A stretch of 64,000 nucleotides of DNA from Endozoicomonas sp. G2_2. Its GTDB lineage: Bacteria > Pseudomonadota > Gammaproteobacteria > Nevskiales > Salinisphaeraceae. The position numbers and the translations under genes are program-made. The stretch spans positions 124,001 through 188,000 of the forward strand of contig NZ_JAGHQU010000002.1 in assembly GCF_017744135.1 (NCBI RefSeq), in the 5' to 3' direction. The notes under the pieces were generated by a model, which saw only the letters and a program-made list of their open reading frames with translations, did not search any database and was not told where the DNA came from. Of this stretch, positions 54,669 through 64,000 are shown piece after piece (within the stretch, counting starts at the first letter, position 1; each line of letters starts with the position of its first letter).

Positions 54669-56492
54669 ATGAGCGATACCGGTTTCGATCCCCGTACCTA
54701 CTTGCGTCAGCTGACTCAGGCGCCCGGCGTGTACCGCATGTACGACGCCAAGGGCGACGTGCTCTATGTCGGCAAGGCCAAGAACCTGAAGAAGCGGGTG
54801 TCCAGCTATTTCCTGCGCGCGTCGGGCAATGCCAAGACCGAGGCCATGCTCGACCAGGTGGCGGATATCGAAGTCACGATCACGCATACGGAAGACGAGG
54901 CGCTGCTGCTCGAATCCACGCTGATCAAGCGTCACCGGCCGCGTTACAACGTCTACCTGCGGGATGACAAGAGTTATCCCTACCTCATGATCACCGGCGA
55001 TAACGACTACCCGCGGGTGGTATATCACCGCGGCGCTCAGAAGCGGAAAGGGCATTATTTCGGCCCGTTCCCCAGTTCCGGCGCGGTCAAGCAGACGCAG
55101 GACACGCTCATGCGTCTGTTCAAGCTGCGCAACTGTCGCGACAGCTTCTTCGAGAACCGCTCGCGGCCCTGCCTGCAGTACCAGATCAAGCGATGCACGG
55201 CGCCCTGTGTCGGCTTCATCAACAAGGCGGACTATGCGCGCGACGTGAAGGATGCGGTGGAACTGCTCGAAGGCCGCAACGAGAAGCTCATCGACCGGCT
55301 GGTCGGCGAGATGGAGGCGGCGGCCAAGGCGCTGGATTTCGAGACCGCGGCGCGGCTGCGCGAGAAGATCGCGGCGCTGCGTCGGCTGCAGTCTCAGAGC
55401 CAGAAGGTCGGCGGGCAGGGCGATTTCGACATCGTCTGTGCCGCGATCGATGGCGGAATCGGCGCCGTGGTGGTGGTCACGGTGCGCGGCGGCATCAATC
55501 TCGGACACCGGAGCTTTTTTCCGCATGCGCCGCCGGGAACCGATGTGGGCGATCTCACCGCCGCGTTCATGAGCCAGTATTATCTCGAACGCCGGCCGCC
55601 GCCGGAGCTGCTCGTCGACCCGCTGCCGGCCGACGACAAGTGGCTCGCGGAAAGCCTGGGCCGTCGCGCGCAACGCAAGGTCGCCTTCAAGACCAACGTG
55701 CGCGCCGAGCGTAAACGCTGGCTCGACAACACGCGCGCCACGCTGGCGCAGACGCTTTCCGCGCAGCTGGCCAGCCGTGCCGGGGTGGAGAAACGGCTAT
55801 CGTCGCTTGCGCAGGGGCTGGGCCTGTCGGCGCCGCCCATGCACATGGCCTGTTTCGATATCAGCCACACCTCCGGCGAACGCACGGTGGCGTCCTGTGT
55901 GGTGTTCGAGGCCGGCACGCCCAACAAGTCGAAGTATCGGCGCTTCAATATCGACGGCATCGAACCCGGCGACGACTACGCGGCCATGCGTCAGGCCCTC
56001 ACACGCCGTTTCAAGCGCGTGCAGGCGGGCGAGGAAAACATGCCCGATCTGTTGCTCATCGACGGCGGCAAGGGCCAGCTCGCGGTGGCGGTCGAAGCGC
56101 TCGACGAACTGGGCGTGACGGGTGTGCAGATCATCGGCGTCGCCAAGGGCTCAACCCGCAAACCGGGGCTGGAGCAGATCTTTTTGCCGGCCGAGAAGTC
56201 GCCACTTATACTTCCGGCAGACTCGCCGGGCCTGCATCTCATCCAGCAGATACGCGACGAGGCGCACCGTTTCGCCATCGCCGGCCATCGCGGTCAGCGC
56301 GGCAAGGCGCGCCAGGGTTCGATGCTCGACGGGGTCGACGGACTCGGCCCGAAACGGCGCAAGAAACTGCTGCAAACCTTTGGTGGCCCAAAGCAGATCG
56401 CCCGTGCCGGCGTGGCCGAACTTGCCCGGGTGGAAGGGATCAGTGCGACCATGGCACAACGGATTTACGATTATTTTCATAACACGGCCTGA
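54669..56492 (+). CDS. uvrC: UvrABC nuclease subunit C
   Basis: Makes both cuts in nucleotide-excision repair. 607 residues: N-terminal GIY-YIG domain (PGVYRMYDAKGDVLYVGKAKNLKKR), a cysteine-containing stretch, the UvrB-interacting UVR helices (DFETAARLREKIAAL), the RNase-H-like endonuclease (CFDISHTSGE; LLIDGGKGQL), and C-terminal helix-hairpin-helix pair (LGPKRRKKLLQTFG). All complete. The order uvrC-pgsA-tRNA-Gly-tRNA-Cys is conserved in gammaproteobacteria. Confidence 0.97.
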   Translation: MSDTGFDPRTYLRQLTQAPGVYRMYDAKGDVLYVGKAKNLKKRVSSYFLRASGNAKTEAMLDQVADIEVTITHTEDEALLLESTLIKRHRPRYNVYLRDDKSYPYLMITGDNDYPRVVYHRGAQKRKGHYFGPFPSSGAVKQTQDTLMRLFKLRNCRDSFFENRSRPCLQYQIKRCTAPCVGFINKADYARDVKDAVELLEGRNEKLIDRLVGEMEAAAKALDFETAARLREKIAALRRLQSQSQKVGGQGDFDIVCAAIDGGIGAVVVVTVRGGINLGHRSFFPHAPPGTDVGDLTAAFMSQYYLERRPPPELLVDPLPADDKWLAESLGRRAQRKVAFKTNVRAERKRWLDNTRATLAQTLSAQLASRAGVEKRLSSLAQGLGLSAPPMHMACFDISHTSGERTVASCVVFEAGTPNKSKYRRFNIDGIEPGDDYAAMRQALTRRFKRVQAGEENMPDLLLIDGGKGQLAVAVEALDELGVTGVQIIGVAKGSTRKPGLEQIFLPAEKSPLILPADSPGLHLIQQIRDEAHRFAIAGHRGQRGKARQGSMLDGVDGLGPKRRKKLLQTFGGPKQIARAGVAELARVEGISATMAQRIYDYFHNTA

Positions 56493-56535
56493 AGACGGTG
56501 CCATCCGATCCGAGCCGGACCGCGAGGAGACCCGC

Positions 56536-57087
56536 TTGAACCTGCCCATCTGGCTGACCCTGTTTCGTCTGATTCTCATCCCATTCGTGGTGGGTCTGAT
56601 GTTCGTGCCGTTGCCCAGCGCCAACATCCTGGCGGCGGTGCTGTTCGGCATCGCGCTCGCCACCGACTGGCTCGATGGCCATCTCGCCCGACGCTGGAAT
56701 CAGACTTCGGCGTTCGGCGCCTTTCTCGACCCGGTCGCCGACAAGCTCATCGTCTGTGCGGTGCTGGTGATGCTCGTCTACCGCGACCCGCATTACTACA
56801 TTGCGCTGCCGGCCACGATCATCGTCGGGCGCGAGCTCACCGTATCGGCGCTTCGGGAGTGGATGGCGGAGCTGGGCGAGCGCGGTGTCGTCGCTGTTGG
56901 CTCGCTCGGCAAGTACAAGACCGCGATCCAGATGACCGCCATTTCGCTGATGCTGTTCGATCTCGTGCAGCGCACGGGAATCTATCTGCTCGGCGTCGTG
57001 CTGCTGGTCATCGCCGCCGCGCTCACGCTGTGGTCGATGGGCGTCTATCTGCGCCAGGCGTGGCCCCGGCTCAGCATGGAACGCTGA
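56536..57087 (+). CDS. pgsA: CDP-diacylglycerol-glycerol-3-phosphate 3-phosphatidyltransferase
   Basis: First committed step of phosphatidylglycerol synthesis at the inner membrane. About 183 residues from TTG 56536, placed by AGGAGA at 56525-56530. The CDP-alcohol phosphotransferase motif DGHLARRWNQTSAFGAFLDPVADK (in parts: DG, AR, G, D, D) is complete at about 58-81. About five helices. Follows uvrC and precedes the tRNA genes. Confidence 0.95.
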   Translation: MNLPIWLTLFRLILIPFVVGLMFVPLPSANILAAVLFGIALATDWLDGHLARRWNQTSAFGAFLDPVADKLIVCAVLVMLVYRDPHYYIALPATIIVGRELTVSALREWMAELGERGVVAVGSLGKYKTAIQMTAISLMLFDLVQRTGIYLLGVVLLVIAAALTLWSMGVYLRQAWPRLSMER

Positions 57088-57114
57088 CCTGTCGAAAACG
57101 TTGCACGATATGGG

Positions 57115-57142
57115 TTGACACCCGTTCGTTTAGCCCTAGAAT
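57115..57142 (+). promoter_or_regulatory. sigma-70 promoter of the tRNA genes
   Basis: Consensus TTGACA at 57115-57120 and TAGAAT at 57137-57142 with a 16-base spacer. The best promoter match in the window, directly before tRNA-Gly. Confidence 0.85.
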
Positions 57143-57158
57143 ACGCACTCTCAACGGC

Positions 57159-57233
57159 GCGGGAATAGCTCAGTGGTAGAGCACAACCTTGCCAAGGTTG
57201 GGGTCGCGAGTTCGAATCTCGTTTCCCGCTCCA
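57159..57233 (+). tRNA. tRNA-Gly (anticodon GCC)
   Basis: Complete cloverleaf: acceptor GCGGGAA with TTCCCGC, D-loop AGCTCAGTGGTAGAGC, anticodon stem and loop with GCC (CTTGCCAAG), T-arm GTTCGAATC, discriminator T and encoded CCA. Reads GGY glycine codons. Stands at the conserved pgsA-distal position. Confidence 0.97.
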
Positions 57234-57247
57234 AATAGACATTGCCG

Positions 57248-57281
57248 AAAAACCTCGGCCCGGCGGTCGGGGTTTTTCTTT
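57248..57281 (+). terminator. terminator-like hairpin between the two tRNA genes
   Basis: AAAAACC-T-CG pairs with CG-G-GGTTTTT around a 10-base loop and is followed by further T-rich sequence. It may partly separate the two tRNAs or process the precursor; no second promoter is evident before tRNA-Cys. Confidence 0.55.
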
Positions 57282-57313
57282 ATCGGCATCCGGTTCTTCG
57301 GATGTATGCGACC

Positions 57314-57387
57314 GGCCAGGTGGCAGAGTGGTGATGCAGCGGCCTGCAAAGCCGCGTACCTCGGTTCGATTCCGGGCCTGGCCTCCA
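57314..57387 (+). tRNA. tRNA-Cys (anticodon GCA)
   Basis: Acceptor GGCCAGG with CCTGGCC, anticodon loop CTGCAAA (GCA), T-arm GGTTCGATTCC, discriminator T and encoded CCA. Its 3' end is the boundary with AT-richer DNA and the NRPS-PKS gene, a typical integration position. Confidence 0.96.
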
Positions 57388-57433
57388 TTTGATTTGCGTT
57401 CGCGCCGCAAGAGCGATGGCACGTTTAACGTAC

Positions 57434-57475
57434 TGGTAGGACGTGATCTGCAAAGTCGCGTCTGCGGCGAGTCAA
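57434..57475 (+). repeat. partial tRNA-Cys-like sequence
   Basis: TGGTAGG...CTGCAAAGTCGCGT resembles the D-arm to anticodon-arm part of tRNA-Cys next door (CTGCAAAGCCGCGT), with one change in the 14-base core. No cloverleaf can be completed. It may be a remnant of a duplicated or displaced tRNA end at an integration site. Confidence 0.35.
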
Positions 57476-57685
57476 AGCGCTGAAAGTCATCTCAGCGGAT
57501 ATATAGCATGCCGCGACAGCCTCTCTCGGGGAATGCTACAAACGGTGTGAAGTAAGTCGTAGCAATTCAAAAATCGGGTGAAGACGCGCGTATCACTCTT
57601 TCGACGAGGGTGTTAAATTTAATACGCGCCACGCCGAGTCTTTTATGGCACGCTTTATAGATTTGTTTACACTGTCCTTAACGGC

Positions 57686-57961
57686 TCAAATGCCTCGATA
57701 GAAACGCCTATCCCCTATCCAATCGATCGGCGTGACCATCACCTCTCGCCAAGTGCGCTTCTGCCAGTCTGACGACTTAAACTCTGTAATCAAAGCTTCA
57801 ATTGAGCGTGCTGTGCTCGCCGCCAATGCTTCGACTTTTTACTGGTCGGCGATATTGGCCTGATCTTGCATCTTGAGCACGGCGTCGATGGAACAATACC
57901 AAAGACGATTCGACTCCCTCGGTTGGTATTTCACCCAAACGTGTTTTTGGCAGATAATGCC
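57686..57961 (-). pseudogene. degraded reading frame, unidentified (possible mobile-element remnant)
   Basis: On the minus strand one frame reads as plausible protein (HVWVKYQPRESNRLWYCSID, then EALITEFKSSDWQKRTWRE) over about 90 codons, broken by a TAA at 57839-57841. The DWQKRTWRE stretch loosely recalls transposase C-termini, but no catalytic residues are seen. Another frame joins in the A-run near 57945, hinting at a frameshift. Identity uncertain. Confidence 0.3.
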
Positions 57962-58070
57962 TTATCGGCACGTAGGGGGGCTGATGGATGACGATGACCC
58001 ACATCGCGTATGACGCGCGGATAGCTTTCGCGTTGCGACTCTGGGCTACCCAGCTGATGCGGGCACGGTC

Positions 58071-61000
58071 GTGAGCGGCTCGAGGGTTATAGCGGAATAC
58101 GCGCCGACGCCCGCGCAGGAGGGAATGATTCTCCAGGCGCACGCGGCACCGGATTCCCCAGTCAATGTCGCGCAGTTCGTCATTCGGGTCGACGAGCCCC
58201 TTGACCAATCGGCTTTTGCAGCCGCATGGAAGTCGTTAATCGTCCGCCACGAGGCGCTCCGGACACGTTTCATCTACCGAGCTCGCGGCAGCGCACGTCA
58301 GCTCGTACAGGACAGCGTCGAGTTGCCACTGCAATGGCATGACGCGAGAAATTGGTCGCAGGCCGAAGTCGATGCCTTCGTCGAAGCCGACTTTGAGTCA
58401 CCTATAGATTTATCTGTAGCGCCGGCGTTTCGGTTCGCGGGTTTGGAACTTGGCAACCGGCAATGGTGCGTGGTTTGGTCATTTCATCATGTGCTGATGG
58501 ACAGCCGCGGATTCGTTCTGCTGGTCGATGAGTTCTTCGAGCATTACGAAGCGTTTGCGACCGGCCATAGTGCGCCCGAGCTGGCGCCGCCGCGATCGCC
58601 GCGTGAGTTTTCCGAATGGCACCAAGCGCGCGATGCAGAGCCTGATCGCCAGTTCTGGAGCGAATATCTGCGTGGCGTGAATCGTATGCCGCCGTTGCCG
58701 GGCGCATTTGCTGCCGGCAGCGCTGAGCAGTTTTCAGCGCCCGGGACGGCGCGGGTGATACGCCGGATGGCGCCCAACGTGAGCGCGCAACTCGCGCAAC
58801 TGGCAGACGAACGGGGTATTGGCGGGTCGGCGCTGGTCGAGGGGCTATGGGCCATTTTGCTCTGGCGGCATACCGGCGAGGCCGATGTGGTGTTCGGTGT
58901 GACCCGCACGGGCCGTACGGGTGGCGTGCGTGATGCGGGGAGTGTGCGGGGGCTTTTTATCACCACAACGCCGTGTCGCGTGAAGGTCTCGCCCGAGATG
59001 TCCTTAAGAACATTCCTGCACGCGCGGCGCCAAGACCAGCGGCGCACGCATCCGCATCAGCATCTCGGCTTGCTGGAAATTCAGCGCGCGGCTGCCACTG
59101 GCCGGGGATTGCTGGATTCGCTTGTTCTCTACGAGCATCGAACGGTCGATGCCGCCTTGACCCCTCACAAACGCGGCCACGCCTGGGACTTTCATTTTCG
59201 TGGCCATACCGGTTATCCGCTGACGCTGTTTGCTTACGGCGGCGATCAGATGATGCTGGAAATGGAATACGATCCGCAGCGGTTCGACGAGTCGACAGCC
59301 AACACGCTGGTAGACCGTCTCGTCGCGCTCGCTGAATCGGTGAGTTGCCAGGGCGCGGATGTGCCGCTAAGTGCGCTCGAATGGCTGGCGCCGGCTGATC
59401 GCGTGCGGCTTGTCGAACGATGGCAGCCGCAACCCACGCCGTCGCCGCAAGCGCGCATGATTGACGAGGTCGTGGCTGCACACGCACAAGCGCAGCCCGA
59501 TGCCGTCGCCTTGTGCTGCAGTGGTCGCGAACTGAGTTATGCGGGACTCGATGCGGCCATCGACCGATTGGCTGCGCGTCTGGCCGCGGCCTCGGTTCAC
59601 CCACGTGACCGTGTCGCCATCGTGCTGCCGCGTTCGGAGCAACTGGTTATCGCAGCACTTGCGGTGCAGCGTGTGGGTGCGGCCTACGTGCCTTGTGATC
59701 CGACACATCCTGTATCCCGGTTGGCGCGTGTGTTCGAGGTGGCCAAACCGGTGTGTGTCATCGCAATGCGTTCGGTCGTGGACCGGCTGCCTGACAACGC
59801 GCCATCGATAGTCGAGTTGGACGGAGCGGTCAGCTCTACCGATGATGCAGAGCACTTTGCCCGGCCAGAGCGGGCTGTCGTATCCGCCAGTGATGCGGCC
59901 TATGTGATTTTCACGTCGGGGTCGAGCGGGCTGCCCAAGGGCGTGGTCCTGACACACGCCAACGTGATGAATTTTCTGCACGGCATGGTGCAGCGCCCGG
60001 GTATCGGCAAGGCAGACCGCTGGCTCGCCGTCACCACGCTGTCTTTCGACATCGCCGTACTCGAGCTGTTTGGCCCGCTCATGACGGGCGCTCGCGCGGT
60101 GATTGCCCAAGACGACGACGTAGTCGATGGTATGCGTCTCGCGCGCCTGATCGACTCGGCCGGCGTCGATCATTTGCAGGCCACCCCGTCCGCCTGGCGG
60201 CTATTGCGTATGGCGGGCTGGAGTCCGCCTGCGGGTTTCGTCGGATTAGTCGGCGGTGAGCCGCTGGACGCAGCGCTGGCAGCCGATCTGCTCGGCTCGG
60301 CAGCGGACGGCTTTGCTTTGTGGAACATGTACGGTCCGACCGAAACCACGGTCTGGTCCACGTGCGAGCAGATCGTTGCGAGCGACGATATCGGGATCGG
60401 AACACCCATTGCCAACACTCGCTGCTATGTGGTCGATTCGGACGGCGCGCTCGTGGCACCCGGCGTGGTGGGGGAACTCTATATCTCGGGCGCCGGTGTC
60501 GCCGCCGGTTATCTGAACGACGCCGAGCGTACCGCGGCGGCATTCATTGATTGGTCGCCGGGCCACGGGGTTGCGCCGGAGCGTACTTATCGCACCGGCG
60601 ATCTGGCGCGTTGGCAGGCTGGATCGGATGGCGGTGGCCGGCTGATGTGTCTCGGGCGTAGCGATGACCAGATCAAATTGCGCGGCCATCGGATCGAACC
60701 CGGCGAGATCGAGACCGCCATGACGGCGCATGCGAGCGTCGAGCAGGCGGTCGTGAAACTCGTGGGCCACGAACCGCCGCGGCTGGTCATCTACTTGCGC
60801 CTGAACAGTGCGTTCGACGAGTATGCCCTGCGCGCGCACGCGAGCGAGCGGCTGCCGGCGATCATGTGTCCGAGCGTGTATATGCCGGTTGACACATTTC
60901 CGCTCACAGCGAACGGCAAAATTGATCGGCGAAGTTTGCCGTTGCCGGATTCTGCGGGCGAGCTGGCCGGTAGCCTGCGCTTCGTTGCCCCCCGTAGCGA

Positions 61001-64000
61001 AACCGAAAAGACCCTCGCAACAATCTGGACTCAGGTGACTGGCGCAGTCCGTCCGGGAATCGACGACAGTTTCTTCGATATCGGCGGGGACTCGTTGTCG
61101 CTGGTGACCGCACGCGGGCAAATCGCTGAGTATTTTGGCGACGCGCCCTCGATCGCAGAGCTCTTTCAATACGCCACGATTCGGAAATTGGCTGAGCGGC
61201 TGGACGGCCGAGCCGATAGTTCTTCACCCGCTTCAGCGGAAACGGACGACCGGCGCGAAAGACGTCGCCAGGCCCAAGATCGACGGATCGCGATCATCGG
61301 CATGGCCGGGCGTTTTCCGGGCGCGGGCGATGTGTCTGCTTTTTGGGTCAATCTGGTCGCGGGTGTCGAATCCATCACCCATTTTGATGCAGATGCATTG
61401 CGCGCCCACGAGCTCGATATCGACACGCTCATGGCGCACCCGGATTTTGTGGCCGCCCGCGGTATACTTGATGATATCGAGTATTTCGACGCGTCGTTCT
61501 TTGGCTTTACGCCGCGGGAGGCGGCATTGCTCGATCCGCAGCAGCGGCTATGGCTGGAAACCGCCTGGTCGGCGCTCGAACAGGCCGGCGTGGACCCTGC
61601 ACGCCAGGGTGCGGACGTGGGTGTGTTCGCCGGCGCAGGCTACTTGGAGCCTTATCTTCTCTACAATATATTGCACGATCGCGCCCAGATCGACGATCAA
61701 GTACGCTTGCGTGGCGTCGAAAGTTTCGCCGCCATGGTCTCGAACGACAAGGACTATCTGCCGACCCGAACAGCCTACAAGTTTGGCCTCACCGGCCCGG
61801 CAATCAACGTTCAGACGGCATGTTCCACGAGCCTCGTCGCGGTGCATCAGGCCTGCCTGAGTCTGCTTGCAGGCGAATCACGGCTGGCGATTGCAGGCGG
61901 CGTCTCCATCGGCTTGCCCCAAGAGCTCGGGTATTTCGCCCAAGAAGGCGGCATGGCGTCCCAAGACGGCCATGTAAGAACGTTCGATGCAGATGCCTGC
62001 GGCACGGTGTTCTCCAGTGGCTTGGGAGCGTTCGTTCTCAAATGCTATGACGATGCAATCGCCGATGGCGATGACATTCTTGCGGTAATCCGTGGCAGCG
62101 CCATCAACAACGACGGCGCATCCAAGATGAGTTTCACCGCGCCCAGCCCGGCGGGGCAGGCGGCCGTGATCCACGCCGCGCAAAAAGCCGCGGGGGTGAC
62201 GCCCGACGAGGTCGGCTATATCGAAGCGCACGGCACTGGGACGCCGCTCGGGGATCCGATCGAGGTCGAAGGTTTGGCGATGGCGTGGCGCGAGGGCGGT
62301 GCCACGGGCGCGCCGGTATGGCTGGGTTCGGTCAAACCCAACATCGGCCATCTCGACTCGGCGGCTGGCGCAGCGGGTCTGGTCAAGGTGGTGCATGCGG
62401 TACGCGAAGGGCAGCTGCCCGCAACCCTGCATTACAGGCGTCCCAATCCGCGCATCGATTTTTCAGCGACGCCGTTCACGATCGTCGGCGCGCTCACGCC
62501 GTGGCCGGCCCAGCCTGATCGTCCGCGTATTGCCGGCGTGTCCTCATTCGGCGTAGGCGGCACCAACGCGCATATTATTGTGTCCGAGCCGCCGCCCCGG
62601 CCTGTGAGCAGCGTACCCCCTCGGGCGCCGCAGCTGCTTATCTTGTCCGCGAAGACGCCGACCGCACTTGCGGCGCGTTGCACGACGCTGGCCGAGTGGC
62701 TGAACGCGCACCCGGACGCAGTGCTAGCTGACGTAGCGTGGACGCTGGCAGTCGGGCGCGCACAGATGCGTTATCGCATCAGTTTGGTAGCGGCGACGCC
62801 GGCCGAGGCTGCCGAAGCCTTGGCTCGTGCCGCACGCCGAGCTGCGACGCGGCCCGCGACCGAATCCGACGCACCGCCGATACTTTTTGTAATGCCAGGC
62901 CAGGGTGCCCAGCATCCGGGGATGGGGCGCGCGCTCTATGACGTGCCCGGCGTCTTCCGGGATACAGTGGATCGTCTCGCCGGATACCTAGCGGAACCGC
63001 TTGGGCTCGACCTGCGGGAGCTGATTTTTCCGGCACCTGCCGCGCAGGCCGTAGCAGCGGACCGGCTGGCCGATACCGCCATCACCCAGCCTGCAGTCCT
63101 CGTGATTGAACTGGCGCTGGCCTATCAATGGCGCGCATGGGGGATCGAGGCACAGACGCTGATCGGGCATAGTCTTGGCGAGTTTGCCGCGGCCGTGCTC
63201 GCGGGCGTATTTACCGAGGCCGACGCATGTCGGCTGATTGTGACCCGCGCACGCCTCATGGCGGCACAGCCCAGCGGTGCGATGCTGGCGATACACGCCG
63301 CGCCCACACAGGTTCAAGCGCATCTGGATGACAGCGTAGAGATCAGTGCGATCAACGCGCCGGAATTATGTGTGGTTTCCGGCGATCACACGGCGATCGA
63401 TGCGCTCGACGATCGTTTGCTGACGGCAGGTCTCCGAACCACCCGGCTTGCCACGTCGCACGCCTTTCATAGCCGCGCCATGGCGCCTGCGATGACCGCG
63501 CTGGAAGAGGCCGTGGCGGCGGTGTCTCGCGCGCCGGCGCAACGCCCGATCATATCCACGCTCACTGGCGCCGCGTTGACAGCCGACGACATGAGCGCGC
63601 CTGACTACTGGTCGCGCCAGATGCGCGAGGCCGTGCGTTTCGCGCCGGCCATCGAGGCCGCGCACGAAAGCCTTCGCCCGGTCTTTCTCGAATGCGGGCC
63701 CGGTGGGCAACTCACGGCTGCCATCAGCCAGCAGCACGCCGCCGATTCGCCGCCGGTCGCCATCGCCAGCCAACCAGGCGCGCGCGATGACACGCCGGCC
63801 GACGTGGCGTTACTTAGCGCACTGGGCGCGCTCTGGCAGGTGGGCGTAATGCCCGACTGGCGCGGGGTGTTCGGCTGCGAGCAGGCGCCGCGCCTGCGCT
63901 TGCATCTGCCGACCTATCCCTTTGAACGCCAGCGCTACTGGATCGACCCGCCGAATCGCGTGTCGCCCGATGTCGCGTCTGCCATGGAATCGGCTATGTC
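58071..64000 (+). CDS. hybrid NRPS-PKS megasynthase, 5' part (C-A-PCP-KS-AT...), truncated by window end
   Basis: About 1976 residues seen from GTG 58071; no stop before the window ends. Domains: condensation (about 10-440; HHVLMDS at 139-145, the usual HHxxxDG ending in Ser), adenylation (about 465-960; FTSGSSGLPKG, MYGPTETT, YRTGDL, NGKID), PCP with FFDIGGDSLS (Ser1008), ketosynthase (1071-1500; Cys1251, His1387, His1427), and acyltransferase (1602-1900; Ser1701 in GHSLGEF, HAFH at 1797-1800). The A-pocket residues read D-I-L-Q-L-G-M-V-W-K, close to known glycine codes. HAFH indicates malonyl-CoA. The post-AT linker (PTYPFERQRYW) is reached at the end. Beginning with a C domain, it either accepts an upstream chain or starts on an acyl unit. 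No clear ribosome site precedes the GTG. Confidence 0.93.
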   Translation, partial: MSGSRVIAEYAPTPAQEGMILQAHAAPDSPVNVAQFVIRVDEPLDQSAFAAAWKSLIVRHEALRTRFIYRARGSARQLVQDSVELPLQWHDARNWSQAEVDAFVEADFESPIDLSVAPAFRFAGLELGNRQWCVVWSFHHVLMDSRGFVLLVDEFFEHYEAFATGHSAPELAPPRSPREFSEWHQARDAEPDRQFWSEYLRGVNRMPPLPGAFAAGSAEQFSAPGTARVIRRMAPNVSAQLAQLADERGIGGSALVEGLWAILLWRHTGEADVVFGVTRTGRTGGVRDAGSVRGLFITTTPCRVKVSPEMSLRTFLHARRQDQRRTHPHQHLGLLEIQRAAATGRGLLDSLVLYEHRTVDAALTPHKRGHAWDFHFRGHTGYPLTLFAYGGDQMMLEMEYDPQRFDESTANTLVDRLVALAESVSCQGADVPLSALEWLAPADRVRLVERWQPQPTPSPQARMIDEVVAAHAQAQPDAVALCCSGRELSYAGLDAAIDRLAARLAAASVHPRDRVAIVLPRSEQLVIAALAVQRVGAAYVPCDPTHPVSRLARVFEVAKPVCVIAMRSVVDRLPDNAPSIVELDGAVSSTDDAEHFARPERAVVSASDAAYVIFTSGSSGLPKGVVLTHANVMNFLHGMVQRPGIGKADRWLAVTTLSFDIAVLELFGPLMTGARAVIAQDDDVVDGMRLARLIDSAGVDHLQATPSAWRLLRMAGWSPPAGFVGLVGGEPLDAALAADLLGSAADGFALWNMYGPTETTVWSTCEQIVASDDIGIGTPIANTRCYVVDSDGALVAPGVVGELYISGAGVAAGYLNDAERTAAAFIDWSPGHGVAPERTYRTGDLARWQAGSDGGGRLMCLGRSDDQIKLRGHRIEPGEIETAMTAHASVEQAVVKLVGHEPPRLVIYLRLNSAFDEYALRAHASERLPAIMCPSVYMPVDTFPLTANGKIDRRSLPLPDSAGELAGSLRFVAPRSETEKTLATIWTQVTGAVRPGIDDSFFDIGGDSLSLVTARGQIAEYFGDAPSIAELFQYATIRKLAERLDGRADSSSPASAETDDRRERRRQAQDRRIAIIGMAGRFPGAGDVSAFWVNLVAGVESITHFDADALRAHELDIDTLMAHPDFVAARGILDDIEYFDASFFGFTPREAALLDPQQRLWLETAWSALEQAGVDPARQGADVGVFAGAGYLEPYLLYNILHDRAQIDDQVRLRGVESFAAMVSNDKDYLPTRTAYKFGLTGPAINVQTACSTSLVAVHQACLSLLAGESRLAIAGGVSIGLPQELGYFAQEGGMASQDGHVRTFDADACGTVFSSGLGAFVLKCYDDAIADGDDILAVIRGSAINNDGASKMSFTAPSPAGQAAVIHAAQKAAGVTPDEVGYIEAHGTGTPLGDPIEVEGLAMAWREGGATGAPVWLGSVKPNIGHLDSAAGAAGLVKVVHAVREGQLPATLHYRRPNPRIDFSATPFTIVGALTPWPAQPDRPRIAGVSSFGVGGTNAHIIVSEPPPRPVSSVPPRAPQLLILSAKTPTALAARCTTLAEWLNAHPDAVLADVAWTLAVGRAQMRYRISLVAATPAEAAEALARAARRAATRPATESDAPPILFVMPGQGAQHPGMGRALYDVPGVFRDTVDRLAGYLAEPLGLDLRELIFPAPAAQAVAADRLADTAITQPAVLVIELALAYQWRAWGIEAQTLIGHSLGEFAAAVLAGVFTEADACRLIVTRARLMAAQPSGAMLAIHAAPTQVQAHLDDSVEISAINAPELCVVSGDHTAIDALDDRLLTAGLRTTRLATSHAFHSRAMAPAMTALEEAVAAVSRAPAQRPIISTLTGAALTADDMSAPDYWSRQMREAVRFAPAIEAAHESLRPVFLECGPGGQLTAAISQQHAADSPPVAIASQPGARDDTPADVALLSALGALWQVGVMPDWRGVFGCEQAPRLRLHLPTYPFERQRYWIDPPNRVSPDVASAMESAM

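Follow-up and report, generated by a model that had tools for sequence, protein, structure and literature searches.

A hybrid NRPS-PKS megasynthase with a MycA-type aminotransferase beside an exopolysaccharide gene cluster in Endozoicomonas sp. G2_2

The window analysed here, a 64,000-nucleotide stretch of DNA from Endozoicomonas sp. G2_2 (G000:C22:124001-188000; genome of 3.73 Mb in 33 contigs), ends within a gene for a hybrid NRPS-PKS megasynthase, beyond which lie two alpha/beta-hydrolase genes (hydA and hydB) and an exopolysaccharide (EPS) cluster. It is proposed, with a probability of about 0.42, that the megasynthase is a bimodular NRPS with an intervening PKS-aminotransferase (AMT) module, and that its acyl product would be put on the EPS.

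Domain organisation of the megasynthase and its expected product

The megasynthase is a single 3759-residue frame with a GTG start at 58071, an end at 69350 (extended window coordinates), and 0 internal stops; the window edge (64000) cuts the gene, with C1, A1, PCP1, KS, and AT lying inside (Table 1). Pfam and a motif scan gave the domain order C-A-PCP-KS-AT-ACP-AMT-C-A-PCP, confirming the original prediction of a C-A-PCP module joined to KS-AT in one polypeptide. The Pfam matches over cut-offs were Condensation (best stretch 9-438), AMP-binding (470-815), and AMP-binding_C (879-950), followed in the PKS part by ketoacyl-synt (1071-1329), Ketoacyl-synt_C (1337-1455), and Acyl_transf_1 (1606-1899), together with three stretches of PP-binding and, beyond the window, Aminotran_3 at residues 2261-2556 between the ACP and C2. 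Judged by the active-site motifs carried in one chain, the megasynthase is a hybrid type I PKS-NRPS line. The original prediction had suggested a search downstream for KR, ACP, and TE domains; an ACP was found, followed by the AMT, but KR was absent from the Pfam hits of the megasynthase, and neither a thioesterase nor a reductase domain was among the 11 Pfam families found in it.

Table 1. Features in and immediately upstream of the in-window part of the megasynthase gene
Feature	Window position	Strand	Remarks
Hybrid NRPS-PKS megasynthase, in-window part	58071..64000	+	whole gene G000:C22:182071-193350
C1 condensation domain	58095..59384	+	residues 9-438; motif HHVLMDS; best solved match PvdL
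A1 adenylation domain	59463..60938	+	~residues 465-956; code DILQLGMVWK, glycine-type
PCP1 peptidyl carrier protein	60993..61235	+	~residues 975-1055; GGDSLS at 1005
KS ketosynthase	61281..62570	+	~residues 1071-1500; TACSTS (1249), EAHGTGT, KPNIGH
AT acyltransferase	62886..63767	+	residues 1606-1899; GHSLGE (1699), HAFH (1797); malonyl-type
tRNA-Gly(gcc), neighbour upstream of megasynthase	57159..57233	+	
tRNA-Cys(gca), neighbour upstream of megasynthase	57314..57387	+	

The C1 motif HHVLMDS differs from HHxxxDG, and among solved chains PvdL was closest to C1 (196.3 bits), a closeness that hints that C1 may be of the acyl-initiation subtype. The HAFH motif claimed for the AT is present at residue 1797 and is taken here to be a malonyl motif; it occurred in 68 of the 85 AT stretches scanned. 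The A1 code, read from residues 660, 661, 664, 703, 726, 728, 753, 761, 762, and 950 under what we take to be the PheA position scheme, was identical on recomputation to the D-I-L-Q-L-G-M-V-W-K given originally. Its nearness to glycine codes also stood, as DILQLGMIWK, one residue off, is printed as a glycine code (PMC12283262), and by its sequence the A1 code belongs to the glycine group. The original expectation of glycine extended by malonate agrees with a 2013 survey, in which the Aminotran_3 part of Table 2 (row 11) lists F7QBN5 of Salinisphaera shabanensis E1L3A as C-A-CP-KS-AT-CP-PLP1-C-HxxPF-A-CP, with the prediction Gly-Mal-Nrp and no product given (PMC3870968). This layout, likened here as printed and not by sequence, is that of the megasynthase, and the enzyme is therefore not of a new kind; exosortase and polysaccharide do not occur in the main text of that paper. 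The second adenylation domain, A2, lies beyond the window and has the code DFFSMGCVFK, with DVFGVACVFK, DFFSFGCVFK, DFFSCGVIFK, and DLFNCALTYK at the same place in relatives. The last of these presumably resembles an alanine code, which weakly suggests that the A2 residue may be small, perhaps alanine.

For the domain after the ACP, a profile of 16 family members had the mycosubtilin MycA AMT (6kfm) as its best solved match (553.6 bits), the next family being glutamate-1-semialdehyde aminomutase (253.6 bits). Residues K315 (the YGK lysine) and D287, which presumably bind PLP, were invariant in 16/16 aligned rows. By sequence, then, the domain is a MycA-type aminotransferase; MycA itself acts on a fatty beta-keto chain in a lipopeptide line. 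With such an AMT after the ACP the beta-ketone should become a beta-amine, and from domain chemistry the expected ACP-bound product is 3,4-diaminobutanoyl, to which a second residue would be added; neither a statine nor a tetramic acid is expected. To our knowledge, it is uncommon for 3,4-diaminobutanoyl to arise from glycine and malonate by transamination.

Both condensation-domain matches of the genome fall in the megasynthase. Apart from its KS, the beta-ketoacyl synthase matches listed were a single strong one, in a frame of 448 residues, and five weak matches, so that a second such assembly line is not apparent. Upstream, ~680 bases (window 57390-58070) separate the tRNA-Cys gene from the megasynthase, and the GC minimum of the window is the 2-kb bin 56001-58000 (0.590); the stretch between the two genes is possibly an island edge. 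A promoter scan gave one site, shuffles averaging 0.6.

The hydA/hydB pair and the exopolysaccharide neighbourhood

The hydA frame begins 2 bases after the stop codon of the megasynthase, and directly behind it comes hydB, whose start position was read from the frame by eye. HydA has an alpha/beta-hydrolase fold whose nucleophile elbow carries Arg (22/22 aligned), and HydB is an alpha/beta-hydrolase with Cys at the elbow and a C-terminal His (each 22/22); both elbow residues align with the elbow Ser of solved hydrolases. Using models seeded with the proteins of this genome, both genes were found in 22 of 82 AMT loci (17 regions from the relatives and 65 named loci, some with cut flanks; a further 15 loci, whose aminotransferases stand alone, were not counted). 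In a Planctomycetaceae MAG (L105:11652-13499) the two are fused in one 615-residue frame, which suggests that they may work together. Structure models of the Lysobacter concretionis proteins had mean pLDDT of 82.4 (HydB) and 87.3 (HydA), and the best 50 matches of each in fold searches were esterases, lipases, and other alpha/beta-hydrolases, leaving hydrolase and transferase unseparated. As no TE was found in the megasynthase chain, release is tentatively assigned to HydB with HydA, an assignment drawn from conservation and gene order and based on Cys-thioesterase chemistry.

HydB matched TIGR03100 at 88.8 bits (cut-off 168.45) and HydA matched TIGR03101 at 86.8 bits (cut-off 202.75), both below threshold; HydA and HydB are distant relatives of exosortase A hydrolase 2 and hydrolase 1, respectively, and the NCBIfam models of these exosortase-associated hydrolases are typed as hypothetical equivalogs. 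Membership in an exosortase system was rejected for the present locus on these sub-threshold scores and on the exosortase search (TIGR02602), which returned 0 matches in the genome at E 0.001. In Novosphingobium rosa (L132:3705-5197, G124:C100), a hydrolase 1 that exceeds the TIGR03100 cut-off has a GNCDA elbow and the protein before it has ALRGG, with Arg at the elbow, both read by eye; from this single example, exosortase loci may generally share the Cys/Arg pair.

Downstream of hydA/hydB lie a PPTase (PF17837 and PF01648 over cut-off) and then the EPS cluster. Its initiating transferase WcaJ scored 456.8 bits against TIGR03023 (cut-off 410.75), and Wzx, Wzy, and Wza exceeded the cut-offs of PF13440, PF04932, and PF02563, respectively, whereas Wzz fell just below that of PF02706 (24.2 against 25.5 bits). 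Also present are an EpsL-like outer-membrane protein (215.1 bits, cut-off 275), a BNR protein, a short CbiA/BcsQ-like ATPase, and three glycosyltransferases, of which one exceeds Pfam cut-offs, another matches weakly in NCBIfam, and the third was named by eye; no glycan acyltransferase was identified. Since it combines an initiating transferase with a flippase, a polymerase, and an export channel, the region is, by its gene content, a Wzx/Wzy-type EPS cluster. The originally predicted continuation past the window is borne out for the megasynthase, which runs on to 69350, but its surroundings are an EPS cluster and not a stand-alone metabolite cluster.

The gene order is largely kept in three relatives (G003, G004, and G005) at 62-81% AMT identity, although G004 has the megasynthase in two frames, Wzx on the opposite strand, and additional frames inserted. 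In G007 one contig stops after the hydrolase and PPTase genes, and the AMT match at G007:C262:1673-3371 (L032) falls into two pieces, either because the gene is broken or because the assembly is wrong. An AMT match above 350 bits was present in 17 of 100 relatives, the present genome included, the next match being 185.7 bits. Of the 14 genomes of the genus, 5 have the AMT megasynthase, and the same 5 carry the EPS-cluster BNR protein, which was in no other genome of the 100; linkage without function may explain the co-occurrence.

Distribution of the cassette and its linkage to EPS genes

For the wider comparison, 67 genomes were chosen for having an AMT (17 relatives and 50 of the 65 named loci). 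Poly_export lay within 35 kb of the AMT in at least 16 of them, where copy number and genome size predict 2.67, and none of 200000 simulations reached 16 genomes (maximum 12), under a null of even gene placement and with genomes that are not independent. Among the matches listed, Poly_export was this close in 9/22 genomes with hydA/hydB and 7/45 without (Fisher p 0.033, genomes not independent). Conversely, 51 of the 67, including 13 of the 22 with hydA/hydB, were without Poly_export within 35 kb among the matches listed, some contigs being broken, and Bacteroidota contributed none of the 16 genomes with a nearby Poly_export. A TIGR03100 match lay within 12 kb of the AMT in 23 of 65 genomes searched. 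Exosortase exceeded its cut-off in 7 of 33 chosen AMT genomes, on the AMT contig at ~40 kb (G131) and ~490 kb (G004), with the other listed matches on other contigs.

Two cassettes stand apart from EPS genes in the frames scanned. G026:C178:8742-22885 (L030, L031) has the same order and domains, with hydA, hydB, and PPTase, but no EPS gene was found among six neighbour frames (magnesium transporter, M61 peptidase, biotin/lipoate ligase, and three without match) and no Poly_export within 35 kb among the matches listed; its C1 was a weak match in which the HHxxxD motif was not found. Likewise, four frames near the G071 cassette (iron alcohol dehydrogenase, MFS protein, AraC regulator, and one without match) included no EPS gene.

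An AMT tree was built from 79 of the 82 loci, three rows having been removed for their length or score. On this tree the hydA/hydB label (21 rows) required 8 changes, compared with a shuffled mean of 19.0, where the rows scored without the pair include cut flanks (L052) and genomes with a TIGR03100 match 25-28 kb off (G123 and G149). The presence of hydA/hydB is clustered on the tree but does not form one clade, and gains and losses are not distinguishable. A supported group, separate from the other hydA/hydB rows, unites the present genome with G003, G004, G005, G026, and the Chloroflexota locus L052; outside the order, the closest AMT belongs to a Chloroflexota MAG in which the enzyme likewise starts with C-A(Gly)-T-KS-AT-T-AMT-C.

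Cassettes of the form [A-T][KS-AT-ACP-AMT][C-A-T]n in Lysobacter, Pseudoxanthomonas, Xenophilus, Aquabacterium, and Pirellulaceae share the PKS-AMT core of the megasynthase, and 11 named loci with this layout also carry hydA-hydB; the leading C domain was not found in these 11. In such cassettes a Val- or Pro-type residue often precedes the PKS and a glycine-type one comes after it, the reverse of the megasynthase. By our own code patterns, the A domain nearest before the AMT was Val-type in 16, Pro-type in 9, Gly-type in 7, and other in 28 of 60 loci, and the first A domain after it was Gly-type in 36/66, making glycine before the PKS, as in the megasynthase, a minority arrangement (7/60). 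DAFWLGGTFK is printed as a Val code (PMC9113097). In L059, L063, L072, L089, and L090, a Val-/Pro-type A domain, a PKS-AMT module, and a glycine-type A domain follow one another beside hydA/hydB, and this is a recurring recipe. We know of no product for it.

Possible fates of the product

Domain order and residues are observed, and on established domain chemistry A1 would load glycine on PCP1, where C1 may first acylate the glycine nitrogen with a donor supplied in trans; the KS would join the glycyl and AT-supplied malonyl units to 4-amino-3-oxobutanoyl-ACP; the AMT would convert the 3-keto group to an amine, giving 3,4-diaminobutanoyl-ACP; and C2-A2-PCP3 would append the second residue. HydB, with HydA, would then take the product off, and the acyl group might be placed onto a sugar or lipid-linked repeat unit of the EPS made by the adjacent Wzx/Wzy genes. 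This last step, drawn from gene neighbourhood only, is the weakest.

In favour of this explanation are the adjoining PPTase and Wzx/Wzy genes, the largely conserved gene order, the shared distribution of megasynthase and BNR protein, and the excess of nearby Poly_export genes. Against it count the G026 and G071 cassettes, the 51 genomes with no Poly_export listed close by, the failure to identify a glycan acyltransferase, the C1 motif, the HHxxxD not found in C1 of G026, and the weak A2 assignment. A precedent also weighs against a role in EPS decoration, namely the stieleriacines of Stieleria maiorica, free N-acyl tyrosines that alter biofilms and are encoded beside EPS and PEP-CTERM genes (PMC7293339, which refers to Craig 2011 for a link between N-acyl amino acid synthases and exosortase loci). 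That locus resembles the present one in encoding an amino-acid-derived small molecule beside EPS genes, but it has a stand-alone N-acyl amino acid synthase, a free product, and no NRPS-PKS. The precedent makes it nearly as likely as polymer attachment that the same line yields a small free secreted molecule (a diamino-acyl peptide or N-acyl form), perhaps a biofilm signal or surfactant, that is co-inherited with the EPS genes and not attached. The cassettes lacking EPS genes in the frames scanned are consistent with such a product, as is mycosubtilin, a free lipopeptide made with the same kind of AMT (PMC3870968). Of the export and self-protection genes that the original prediction proposed to seek, however, the flippase Wzx is present, but the frames called from the megasynthase up to the EPS genes (hydA, hydB, PPTase, and Wzx) include no evident dedicated small-molecule exporter or self-protection gene.

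The absent TE, the hydB Cys at the nucleophile place in 22/22, and the free amines expected from the domain order would also fit attack of a free amine on the terminal thioester to give a lactam or ring, with HydA/HydB as cyclase or editing factors. We consider this rather improbable, as the leading C domain suggests that the gamma-nitrogen would be acylated in the clade of the megasynthase, and nothing in the sequence requires a ring. The beta-keto-gamma-amino acid unit of the original prediction, as in tetramic acids or statine, accords with the glycine code and malonyl AT motif; it was rejected, and is very improbable, given the AMT with invariant residues after the ACP and the lack of KR and TE among Pfam hits.

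The locus differs in several respects from the systems it resembles. The MycA module of mycosubtilin has an AMT of the same family at the same PKS-NRPS interface (PMC3870968); in the megasynthase, by contrast, the KS receives its substrate from a glycine module, which should lead to a beta,gamma-diamino unit, and hydA/hydB and EPS genes lie next to the gene. Exosortase A loci (acyl ligase TIGR03098, hydrolase 1 TIGR03100, and hydrolase 2 TIGR03101) contain hydrolases distantly related to HydB/HydA but have a small ligase where this locus has an NRPS-PKS. An EPS-producing Alteromonas with an NRPS cluster has been described, in passages that do not link the two (PMC6361997). In the open-licence literature searched, no NRPS-PKS of this type with an Arg/Cys hydrolase pair and repeated EPS linkage was found.

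More broadly, the locus may represent an unnoticed, widespread form of EPS decoration, in which assembly-line beta-amino acyl groups (here beta,gamma-diamino, from glycine and malonate) would be transferred from carrier to glycan or lipid carrier by an Arg pseudo-hydrolase/Cys-hydrolase pair, with the exosortase ligase and hydrolases 1/2 as its minimal form; we regard this generalisation as doubtful. If the proposed explanation of the locus is right, an NRPS-PKS line would build part of a cell-surface polysaccharide or a co-inherited small molecule, implying a wider role for such enzymes, and the exosortase-associated hydrolases would gain a testable role in handling carrier-bound acyl groups via Cys with an Arg partner.
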